Shown: in pieces, positions 10,846 to 25,094 of the stretch
Numbering within the stretch: the stretch's first letter is position 1
Layout of the letters: each line of letters opens with the position of its first letter
Source: Marinobacterium marinum
Lineage (GTDB): Bacteria; Pseudomonadota; Gammaproteobacteria; Pseudomonadales; Balneatricaceae
Assembly (NCBI RefSeq): GCF_013868415.1
Contig: NZ_JACEMT010000041.1
Location: forward strand, 186,001 to 250,000
DNA: 64,000 nt
Reading direction: 5' to 3'
Notes under the pieces: model-generated
What the model saw: the letters and a program-made list of their open reading frames with translations, nothing else
What the model was told of the DNA's origin: nothing
Database searches by the model: none
Made by a program: the position numbers and the translations under genes

Positions 10846-10859
10846 TTGATCCATATCAA
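10846..10859. promoter_or_regulatory. Perfect Anr/Fnr-type box upstream of ccoN
   Basis: TTGATCCATATCAA matches the TTGAT-N4-ATCAA consensus at all ten fixed positions. cbb3 operons are classic Fnr/Anr targets and an anr gene lies about 10 kb downstream. The box is about 285 bp from the ccoN start, and I see no good -10 at the class II distance, so the exact start of transcription is unclear. Confidence 0.7.
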
Positions 10860-19120: not shown

Positions 19121-19794
19121 TGGAACCCAGCTTGATGCTGTCCGCTCTGGTCTTCGGTCTGGCGGGCAGCACCCATTGCGTCGGTATGTGCGGCGGCATC
19201 GCCGGCAGCATTTCCATGAGCCGGACTCCTGCCCAAAGCAGCGGCCTGTCATTGCTGCTGGCCTTTAACCTGGGCCGCATTCTGAGCTACGCCATCGCCG
19301 GCCTGCTGGTCGGAGCTTTGGGACACTCCCTGGCCAATAGCCCGGAAGCTACCCGCTGGCTGCGTACACTGGCCGCACTGATCATGATAGTCAGCGGACT
19401 CTATATTGCCGGCTGGTGGCAGGGTGCCGCCTACCTTGAGCGACTGGGCGGCGTCCTCTGGCGACGTATCCAGCCGCTTAGCCGTACGCTCTTGCCGGCC
19501 ACCACACTACCCAAGGCTCTGGCTCTGGGCGGACTTTGGGGCTGGCTGCCCTGCGGCCTGGTCTACACAACTCTGATCTGGACCGGGAGCGTCAGCAGTG
19601 AGCCCGCCAACAGCGCCCTGCTGATGCTGTTGTTCGGACTGGGAACTCTGCCGGCTATGATGACAACCGCCTTGCTGGCCGGGCAGCTGCGCCAGCTGAT
19701 GCAACAGCAGGGCGTACGTACCGGCGCTGGCCTGCTGGTTATCGTCTTCGGCCTTGCTACCGTGCCCTGGGGACTGTGGCTGCCTCACGCTTGA
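19120..19794 (+). CDS. TauE/SafE-like (UreH-domain) membrane protein linked to cbb3 assembly
   Basis: A 224-residue membrane protein with about six hydrophobic segments. It begins with LVFGLAGSTHCVGMCGGIAGS and has the matching half-motif GLWGWLPCGLVYTTL in the second half, the repeat pattern of the sulfite exporter TauE/SafE and UreH_2 families. Members beside ccoS occur in many gammaproteobacteria. The conserved HC...MCGG and PCG motifs suggest a metal or thiol role, but the function is not established and true sulfite export seems unlikely here. It overlaps the ccoS stop by one base. The hemN Anr box overlaps its stop codon. Confidence 0.8.
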   Translation: MEPSLMLSALVFGLAGSTHCVGMCGGIAGSISMSRTPAQSSGLSLLLAFNLGRILSYAIAGLLVGALGHSLANSPEATRWLRTLAALIMIVSGLYIAGWWQGAAYLERLGGVLWRRIQPLSRTLLPATTLPKALALGGLWGWLPCGLVYTTLIWTGSVSSEPANSALLMLLFGLGTLPAMMTTALLAGQLRQLMQQQGVRTGAGLLVIVFGLATVPWGLWLPHA

Positions 19795-19832
19795 TACTTA
19801 TCAAGCCGTCTGGTCGACACAACGCCTATAAT
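19791..19832 (+). promoter_or_regulatory. Anr/Fnr class II promoter of hemN
   Basis: A perfect box TTGATACTTATCAA (19791-19804) is centred 32 bp from the centre of TATAAT (19827-19832). This puts the box at about -41.5 relative to a start near 19839, the textbook geometry for Fnr-type class II activation. The hemN start codon is about 26 bp further on. Confidence 0.85.
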
Positions 19833-19864
19833 GCCTTTTTGATTGTTATCCAAGAGGTGTAGTC

Positions 19865-21280: not shown

Positions 21281-21357
21281 TGCGCTTCACCCTTGAGGGT
21301 AAATGTTACATAATGCGCCCAAAGCCATCATGTGACTACAGACCAAAGGATGCCCTC

Positions 21358-22143
21358 ATGGCCGACTGCAAAAATCAAGGAAAGCTTCATAGTCTATCCC
21401 AGGTGCATTGCAAGACCTGCAGCCTGAGCACTCTTTGTTTACCCGTGTCCCTGGAAATGACGGATATCGACCGTCTGGACGATATCATCGAAAAGAGCCG
21501 CCCCCTCAAAAAGGGCGAGCACCTGTTTCATCAGGGCGAACCTTTCAGCTCGGTCTACGCCATCCGCGCCGGCACGATCAAAAGTTACACGCTGACCAAT
21601 GAAGGCGAAGAGCAGATCACCGGATTTTATTTCCCCGGCGAACTGGTGGGCCTGAGCGGTTTTGATGCCGAAAACTACCCGATGTCGGCCAAGGTTCTGG
21701 AAACAACCACGGTCTGTGAAATCCCCTTTGAACGCCTGGATGACCTGTCAGGCCAGCTGCCCGAGTTGCGTCGACAGATGCTGCGCAGCATGAGCAAGGA
21801 ACTGCGTGACGACCAGCAGATGATGCTGCTGCTGTCCAAGAAAAATGCGGAGCAGCGCGTTGCCACCTTCCTGCTCAAATTGTCCCAGCGCTTCAAAACC
21901 CGTGGCTACTCGGCTTCGAACTTCCGTCTGTCCATGTCACGTAATGAGATCGGTAACTATCTGGGTTTGGCCGTGGAAACAGTGAGCCGGATTTTTACCC
22001 GCTTCCAGAAAATGGAACTGATGAGGGTTGATGGCAAGGAAGTGGAACTGATCAATCTTGAAGAAATGTATCGCCTGTCGGGCGAGTCACGTGATAACAG
22101 TCAATGCTCAACGGCAGCTCAGCGAGAACACAAAAGCTCCTGA
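21358..22143 (+). CDS. anr: Anr/Fnr-type oxygen-sensing transcriptional regulator
   Basis: A 261-residue CRP/FNR-family activator with an oxygen-labile [4Fe-4S] cluster. Likely cluster ligands are C18, C21 and C27 in the N-terminal [11 protein letters not shown] segment and C120 in TTVCEIPF; C4 is an additional cysteine. A cyclic-nucleotide-like domain is followed by a dimer helix and a helix-turn-helix with [12 protein letters not shown], where E, S and R match the Fnr recognition residues for TTGAT half-sites. The ATG at 21358, with AAAGGA 7 bases upstream, was chosen over the in-frame upstream codon at 21280. It sits directly after its likely target hemN. Confidence 0.95.
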
Positions 22144-22179: not shown

Positions 22180-22213
22180 AAAAAAAGGACGTAGCTCCAC
22201 TGAAGCTACGTCC
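22180..22213 (-). terminator. Strong intrinsic terminator for minus-strand transcription
   Basis: A perfect 10-bp stem (22187-22196 with 22204-22213, 7-base loop) is followed on the minus strand by seven T (A80-A86 of the plus strand). There is no T run on the plus-strand side. No minus-strand protein gene lies upstream, so it marks the end of some other minus-strand transcript. Confidence 0.8.
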
Positions 22214-22255
22214 CAAGTTGCACAATGAAGTAGCCATCTCAATGTGTAACCCAAC
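22180..22255 (-). ncRNA. Candidate Anr-controlled small RNA between anr and apt
   Basis: Predicted RNA of about 75 nt. An Anr-like box (22290-22303) is followed on the minus strand by TGTAAT (22267-22262) at 32 bp centre-to-centre, the same spacing as in the hemN promoter. Transcription would start near 22255 and end at the U7 terminator. The 5' part can fold into a hairpin (CACATTGA...TCATTGTG, one mismatch). No reading frame is apparent. This is inferred from layout only; I do not recognise the family. Confidence 0.4.
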
Positions 22256-22289
22256 ACCTGCATTACACCTGTATTCCGTTACTGCGGCA

Positions 22290-22303
22290 TTGAGTTATAT
22301 CAA
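22290..22303. promoter_or_regulatory. Anr/Fnr-type box (one mismatch) between anr and apt
   Basis: TTGAGTTATATCAA matches the consensus at nine of ten fixed positions. It is centred 32 bp before the apt start codon, which is unsuitable for activating apt. It is correctly placed for class II activation of a minus-strand transcript. Repression of apt is the alternative. Confidence 0.5.
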
Positions 22304-22328: not shown

Positions 22329-22871
22329 ATGTCCTACGATGAATTTTATGTCAAATCCGTCATCCGCTCGCTGCAGGACTGGCCTGATCCCGGCGTCATT
22401 TTTCGAGACGTGACACCGATTTTCAAGGACCCCAAAGCCATGCGCATGGTGTCTGATGCATTCATCCAGCGCTATATCGACAGCGACATTACCCACATTG
22501 CCTGCATTGATGCACGCGGCTTCCTGGTCGGTGCCATCATTGCGCACCAGCTCAACTTGCCCCTGGTTCTAGTGCGTAAAAAAGGCAAACTTCCCGGTGA
22601 AACCATTCATCAGGAATATACGCTGGAATACGGGACTGCTGCGGTCGAAATGCAGATCGACGCCGTTAGCGAAGGTGATCGCGTCCTGCTGTTCGATGAC
22701 CTGATCGCAACCGGCGGAACCCTTCTGGCCGCCTGCACGCTGATCAAGAAACTCGGGGCCGAAGTCATCGAAGCAGCTGCACTGATTGACCTGCCCGATC
22801 TGCAGGGCTCGACTCGCATTCAGGAACTGGGTATTCCCGTGTACGCTCTACTGGCTTATGAAGGCAGCTGA
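22329..22871 (+). CDS. apt: Adenine phosphoribosyltransferase
   Basis: Purine salvage: adenine plus PRPP gives AMP and pyrophosphate. The 180 residues carry the PRPP-binding motif VLLFDDLIATGGTL and the Apt motifs PDPGVIFRDVTPI, ACIDARGFLVGA and VLVRKKGKLPGETI. Length is standard. The ATG at 22329 was chosen over an earlier ATG at 22308 because the shorter form starts MSYDEFYVKSVIRSLQDWP like known Apt proteins and has GGGAG upstream. It is followed 42 bp later by a small exported thioredoxin-like gene. Confidence 0.95.
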   Translation: MSYDEFYVKSVIRSLQDWPDPGVIFRDVTPIFKDPKAMRMVSDAFIQRYIDSDITHIACIDARGFLVGAIIAHQLNLPLVLVRKKGKLPGETIHQEYTLEYGTAAVEMQIDAVSEGDRVLLFDDLIATGGTLLAACTLIKKLGAEVIEAAALIDLPDLQGSTRIQELGIPVYALLAYEGS

Positions 22872-25080: not shown

Positions 25081-25094
25081 TTGATCATTATCAA
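25081..25094. promoter_or_regulatory. Perfect Anr/Fnr-type box between the rhodanese gene and queE
   Basis: TTGATCATTATCAA matches the consensus fully. For the rhodanese gene (minus strand) a TATACT -10 lies 38 bp away centre-to-centre, slightly longer than ideal. For queE, TTGATC-N16-TACACT would make the box overlap the -35, which suggests repression. The target and sign are open. Confidence 0.6.

Follow-up and report, generated by a model that had tools for sequence, protein, structure and literature searches.

Anr/FNR regulators set the aerobic–anaerobic switch in many bacteria. FnrS, which is among the Rfam families, is an FNR-activated small RNA of enterobacteria, and we know of no action of FnrS on fnr mRNA. 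PhrS is an Anr-controlled Pseudomonas RNA that is longer than the RNA described here and has another target. OmrA and OmrB exemplify small RNA feedback on a regulator, in their case ompR. SicX (P. aeruginosa PA1414) is reported as a small RNA that depends on Anr, acts at low oxygen and has an Anr motif upstream; it comes from a 234-bp gene, was found only in P. aeruginosa and acts on ubiUVT (PMC10247376). ErsA, also a low-oxygen small RNA, is reported to activate anr, with predicted pairing at coding positions +28 to +49 (PMC8575079). Other reported cases of feedback are InvR, which feeds back on hilA, its own activator (PMC11925239), and autoregulatory RNAs derived from 3′UTRs (PMC7398697). 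Among the literature matches listed, we found no small RNA feedback on an FNR-family regulator.

We examined a predicted 76-nt small RNA gene in a 64-kb stretch of Marinobacterium marinum DNA (hereafter the window). The gene lies in the gap between anr and apt, on the strand opposite to both (Table 1). An initial annotation had called attention to three signs on the minus strand: an Anr-like box with nine of ten fixed bases matching, a TGTAAT hexamer 32 bp from it centre to centre, and a terminator with a perfect 10-bp stem and seven U. All three are present as described, including the 32-bp spacing when measured and the seven T of the tract, and the terminator stem has an alternative fold with 13 pairs, G-U included, and a shorter loop. 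The annotation's further statements that no minus-strand protein gene uses this terminator and that the neighbors are hemN, anr and apt also stand: the open reading frame list holds no gene-like minus-strand frame of that kind, and the NCBIfam-type scores of all three neighbors exceed their cut-offs (605.9 bits for hemN, cut-off 324.95; see Table 1 for the others). The window contains eight Anr-type boxes with at most one mismatch, where shuffled sequence yields 1.64 on average (sd 1.39), so a single such box could be a coincidence. The decisive evidence for the predicted gene is its conservation in relatives, not the three signs alone.

Table 1. Coordinates (window numbering) of the predicted small RNA gene, its proposed target and neighboring features.
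Feature	Positions	Strand	Remarks
Predicted anr promoter	21286..21314	plus	TTCACC-17-CATAAT; 9/12 consensus
Predicted anr mRNA leader, proposed target	21321..21357	plus	SD-like AAGGA 21346-21350; ATG at 21358
anr, FNR-family regulator	21358..22143	plus	NCBIfam Fnr subfamily 329.9 bits (cut-off 228); cNMP_binding and Crp HTH domains
Predicted small RNA, 76 nt	22180..22255	minus	5′ end 22255; 3′ end in T tract
Small RNA intrinsic terminator hairpin	22186..22214	minus	T tract 22180-22186
Small RNA hairpin 1	22217..22250	minus	Loop nt 19-26 = 22237-22230, AUGGCUAC, second candidate pairing segment
Small RNA 5′ segment	22246..22255	minus	GUUGGGUUAC, first candidate pairing segment; retained in diverged copies L123 and L124
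Small RNA -10 element	22262..22267	minus	TGTAAT
Anr/FNR-type box	22290..22303	minus	TTGATATAACTCAA (minus) = TTGAGTTATATCAA (plus); centre -41.5, class II position
apt, other-side neighbor of small RNA gene	22329..22871	plus	NCBIfam adenine phosphoribosyltransferase 259.1 bits (cut-off 170)

Our comparison comprised 81 anr loci – the best 80 of 569 candidates from an Anr protein search, plus the window – of which the closest relatives (L002-L006, 91-95% identity) are Marinobacterium species. Box, RNA and terminator recur in the same place and order in 32 of the 81, with carriers in Marinobacterium, Pontibacterium, Neptuniibacter, Neptunomonas and one Nitrincola (Nitrincola alkalilacustris). 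Box, hexamer and terminator are thus conserved together across several genera, the pattern on which the initial annotation had staked its proposal. The element downstream of anr was not found in the other 49 loci, which include Amphritea, five other Nitrincola, Motiliproteus, Balneatrix, Pokkaliibacter and Pseudomonas loci, as well as Marinobacterium xm-d-530 and its kin. On a tree of 65 Anr proteins this distribution needs 7 changes, versus 21.9 in shuffles, which argues that presence of the small RNA is clustered, with several losses or gains.

A covariance search of relatives, which the initial annotation had suggested, recovered the RNA with its hairpin and terminator in the same family, and found one copy in the window's own genome. 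Among 293 genomes of the order, 15 had matches at E <= 0.01: seven were strong (at least 74.8 bits), all from the same family, and the other eight genomes held nine matches of 25.5-30.1 bits. In the 80 nt upstream of these nine weaker matches (27 nt for L090, all the upstream sequence that exists there) we found no box with fewer than two mismatches, and the sole two-mismatch box lay too far upstream. Among 99 genomes of the family, 51 had a match at E <= 0.1, of which 41 were strong (at least 62 bits; a set overlapping the species from which the model was built) and 10 had weak matches only. We read seven of these 10, all except G074, G327 and G334. The matches in G304 and G360 are genuine, with a mismatch-free box centred at -41.5; in this further genus a diverged copy occupies the same place, keeping the box, the -10 element and GUUGGGUUAC, with the remaining hairpin replaced. 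The small RNA was not found in five other genomes of that genus that we examined. On reading, the weak matches in G293, G315, G344, G349 and G366 proved to be chance terminators, and extra weak places in G258 and G373 were chance matches.

As a separate observation, GTAACCCAAC occurs in 104 copies in G304 (loci L145, L153, L161 and L169), often about 110 bp apart, and in 6-11 copies in each of seven other genomes. Similar repeats are present in L286 of G360, and the G304 repeat family has 10 bases in common with the start of the small RNA.

Aligning the 32 carrier loci on the predicted +1 shows no variation at columns +1 to +5 and +7 to +13, a single base within nt 1-13 differing in one locus. 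At columns -1 to -6, by comparison, the share of the most frequent base is only 31-69%. Conservation in the alignment starts exactly at the predicted transcription start. An Anr-type box lies upstream in 32/32 loci, centred at -41.5 in 24 and at -42.5 in eight, and TAAT is found at -10 in 31/32 – a box near -41.5 combined with a -10 element, as in Anr/FNR class II promoters. This promoter predicts Anr-dependent transcription of the small RNA at low oxygen. The joint conservation of promoter elements and terminator supports the Anr-activated small RNA that had been proposed for this site, with activation itself a prediction.

The promoter-proximal half-site has one peculiarity: C replaces A as its first base in all 32 loci (CTCAA; CGCAA in L039), and C was present at that position in none of 22 hemN-side Anr boxes (from 21 of the 32 loci). 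This standing C may tune sensitivity, possibly marking a tuned-down site. Elsewhere in the window, perfect boxes of the form TTGATN4ATCAA are found at 10846-10859, at 19791-19804, upstream of hemN, and at 25081-25094, in the gap separating a minus-strand rhodanese-domain ORF from queE on the plus strand. A second, imperfect box (19839-19852) lies 48 bp past the perfect hemN box, immediately before the hemN start codon; among the 32 carrier loci, only the window has a second hemN box at one mismatch.

The 76-nt RNA is predicted to fold into a 5′ hairpin and a terminator hairpin. Across loci, 96.8% of cells are paired under this structure, versus 80.2% in shuffles, and covariation is 0.503, versus 0.176 in shuffles (0/500 as good) and at most 0.124 when the structure is slid. 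All 11 pairs of the terminator helix show changes on both sides across loci, its sequence being free and its pairing retained. Hairpin 1 has both-side changes at one of 11 pairs (in three Neptunomonas sequences), and six of its pairs never vary. Conservation from +1 and compensating changes in the terminator together argue that a transcript is under selection. We also considered a small ORF inside the RNA (ATGGCTACT...). It is broken in 7/32 loci, by loss of the ATG in L028, L030, L036 and L037 and by a TAA at codon 4 in L032, L033 and L041, so coding is very unlikely. By these comparisons the element appears to be a conserved non-coding unit with its own promoter and intrinsic terminator, as expected of a trans-encoded small RNA. 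We are highly confident that this small RNA gene is genuine and conserved and has an Anr-type promoter, its transcript being predicted.

Going beyond the initial annotation, we found that in most loci the conserved part of the predicted RNA is complementary to the anr leader. Leader pieces such as GUAGCC, CUC, AAUGUGUAA and AACCCAAC are antisense to RNA nt 1-28, in a fixed order and in a selection that varies by locus. We compared 34 carrier loci (the 32 plus the diverged copies L123 and L124) with 23 leaders of relatives lacking the RNA, drawn from L002-L056 (L051 cut short). For one carrier, L037, the start codon used is probably an in-frame ATG further into the gene. Against dinucleotide shuffles of the leader, 22 of the 34 carriers had at most 5/200 shuffles as good (median z -2.8), whereas none of the 23 non-carriers did (median z -0.16) – a contrast of unlike pairings, carriers being matched with their own RNA and non-carriers with the window's. 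These counts come from related loci, carry no kinship correction and are not independent, yet the contrast is sharp despite that relatedness. With the window's RNA, the 34 carrier leaders gave a median z of -3.45 (mononucleotide shuffles). Antisense alignment of leader and RNA had a median score of 27.0 in the 34 carriers and 17.1 in the 23 non-carriers, and alignment to the sense strand scored 16.1 in the same carriers.

The complementarity expected between a trans-acting small RNA and its target is found over the loci, not in the window's pair alone. The window's own pairing, in which AGCCAUC (21323-21329) faces GAUGGCU and AUGUG (21330-21334) faces CACAU, is weak (z -0.9; 37/200 shuffles as good). 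Altogether 12 of the 34 loci miss the 5/200 mark, among them L020, L123, L023 and L124 with 139, 77, 59 and 36 of 200. Swapping RNAs among leaders gave mixed results. The Nitrincola alkalilacustris leader (L037) has the altered RNA of its own locus as best partner (-25.2 versus -19.1 for the next; rank 1/34); loop and leader both differ there. The L124 leader is matched best by the two RNAs of its genus (-29.6 versus -23.4 for the next), and for the leaders of L123, L031 and L040 the own RNA comes 18th, 23rd and 24th of 34. Of eight RNAs swap-tested, none has its own leader in first place (ranks 6 to 29 of 34).

Complementarity of this kind could also reflect the DNA itself, with leader and RNA gene forming a common protein-binding site or a duplicated stretch that flanks anr, and pairing being incidental. 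The leader and the antisense of the RNA do run in the same plus-strand orientation, resembling diverged direct repeats, and the distinct changes examined for G-U-compatible drift split into 12 compatible and nine incompatible. A DNA-level repeat is, however, hard to square with conservation that begins at the predicted +1 and with a terminator kept by compensating changes, and we rate it highly unlikely. Pairing of the small RNA with the anr leader is likely.

The position of the gene raises the question of whether it acts in cis, as an antisense RNA directed at transcripts reading through from anr into apt or at the leader of apt, without pairing in trans. In the window the gene is antisense between anr and apt, and the apt ATG lies 25 bp beyond its Anr box; an apt-like start follows anr in 32/32 loci by motif, and tblastn finds apt in five loci (L123, L124 and three others). 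The apt start region is nonetheless barely complementary beyond shuffles (3/32 loci with at most 2/100 as good; median z -0.64). Moreover, a cis-antisense RNA is complementary whatever its sequence, so cis action leaves the near identity of nt 1-39 over several genera unexplained. We consider it very unlikely.

Two sites at 9/12 promoter consensus are present in the region where 1.9 are expected, so the predicted anr promoter is weak evidence by itself; an ATAAT motif is found ahead of anr in most of the relatives compared. The predicted leader has a median length of only 38 nt, with the ribosome-binding site at its end. In 31/32 loci the 200 bp upstream of anr contain no Anr box at a tolerance of one mismatch, for which a post-transcriptional brake is the simplest reading. 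The local regulatory loop suggested by the initial annotation takes a concrete form in the complementarity of the RNA to the anr mRNA leader.

We propose that at low oxygen Anr, bound at the class II box, would activate transcription of the small RNA, whose 5′ end (GUUGGGUUAC) and loop (GAUGGCUAC) would then pair with the anr leader, perhaps helped by Hfq, which the genome encodes (102.2 bits, cut-off 27). The duplex would sit at or beside the ribosome-binding site, and the outcome would be lower anr translation and perhaps lower mRNA stability. RNA feedback would in this way stand in for direct autoregulation at an anr promoter devoid of an Anr box. A trans-acting, Anr-activated small RNA that lowers anr translation in a negative feedback is the reading we find reasonably probable, with repression, the sign we infer, as the best guess for the outcome of pairing.

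The opposite sign, in which the small RNA activates anr translation or stabilizes anr mRNA in a positive loop, appears improbable. The predicted duplex ends between -25 and -11 in 21 of 27 usable rows and closer to the AUG in the other six. Its end, about 25 nt from the AUG or nearer, would lie inside a ribosome footprint, which argues against activation. Averaged over 31 leader folds, of which four (L024, L028, L030 and L032) are unreliable because they were placed by a motif too far downstream and so have leaders of 10-13 nt, the SD region of the free leader is mostly open (0.60 unpaired), weakly against activation by unmasking, whereas the AUG goes from 0.47 unpaired in the leader alone to 0.61 with the paired stretch taken, as a positive loop would have it. 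ErsA offers a precedent in P. aeruginosa, an RNA reported to raise Anr by pairing with anr mRNA, though that pairing lies in the coding region (+28 to +49) and not in the leader (PMC8575079).

The RNA could instead be an Anr-activated trans-acting regulator mainly of other mRNAs, in the manner of FnrS or SicX, with anr pairing secondary. We think this unlikely on balance. Near invariance of the RNA alongside a drifting anr leader is what an RNA with many targets would show; far more conserved than the leader, the RNA may have further, possibly more important targets. Five start codons in the window's genome (of cobalamin-independent methionine synthase-like, nitroreductase, dioxygenase-like, TENA/THI-4 and TbpB_B_D-domain genes) are preceded, at a distance of 20 to 35 nt, by an exact TAACCCAA site, and the loop complement GTAGCCATC occurs 32 times, versus 14 for a reversed control. 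These sites did not hold up among relatives where they were compared. In the two of the five TAACCCAA candidates covered by an orthologue check, the site was present at -70 to +30 in 0/9 methionine synthase-like and 0/28 nitroreductase orthologues. GTAACCCAAC was located in eight genomes, and 40 of its places were compared in five (own RNA genes, G317, G358 and most G304 places being outside this reading); only six pairs were common, all between G238 and G341, one of them covering codons 2-4 of an ORF that, judged by eye, is dehydrogenase-like. Of the 32 loop-complement places, the 30 that we read gave no convincing start-region target. Within this scope – the five genomes' GTAACCCAAC places and, in the window's own genome, 38/38 TAACCCAA and 30/32 GTAGCCATC places – a conserved start-region target other than anr was not found.

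Returning to anr as target, a fuller version of the negative feedback, on which we are evenly divided, is that the RNA represents a new family of marine Oceanospirillaceae in which Anr turns on the RNA and is in turn silenced at the mRNA level by pairing along almost the entire anr leader. The RNA gene may in this version have arisen from a duplicate of the anr leader that came to lie behind anr and is read from the opposite strand. A conserved RNA relaying Anr activity back to anr mRNA would account for how Anr is restrained where the anr promoter lacks an Anr box. If true, one gene, one box and one leader would make a compact, testable feedback circuit in cultured marine bacteria.

The small RNA is apparently not described before, and it adds an RNA family without an Rfam match. 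Rfam gave no match in the window; the best for the small RNA was ncr1241, at 18 bits versus the 60 needed. Plasmid and phage collections held no match to it, and no report of it stood among the matches listed from the open-licence literature on Anr, related small RNAs and the host genera. The initial annotation had recognized neither FnrS nor PhrS in this sequence, in agreement with the absence of any Rfam family at gathering score. The predicted RNA resembles FnrS in its FNR-family activator, its short length with an intrinsic terminator and its low-oxygen logic, and differs from it in matching no Rfam family at gathering score. With PhrS it shares Anr control (here predicted), but it is shorter and again without an Rfam match. 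InvR, OmrA/B and the 3′UTR-derived RNAs are alike in using small RNA feedback but involve other regulators and RNAs. ErsA shares with the present RNA a direction toward anr and a low-oxygen setting, whereas the predicted site of the present RNA is the leader and its probable effect repression. The closest Anr-dependent RNA is SicX, which likewise has an Anr motif upstream and a low-oxygen small RNA logic; the present RNA is set apart by its predicted 76-nt length, its place in the anr-apt gap, its occurrence in another group of bacteria and its complementarity to anr.
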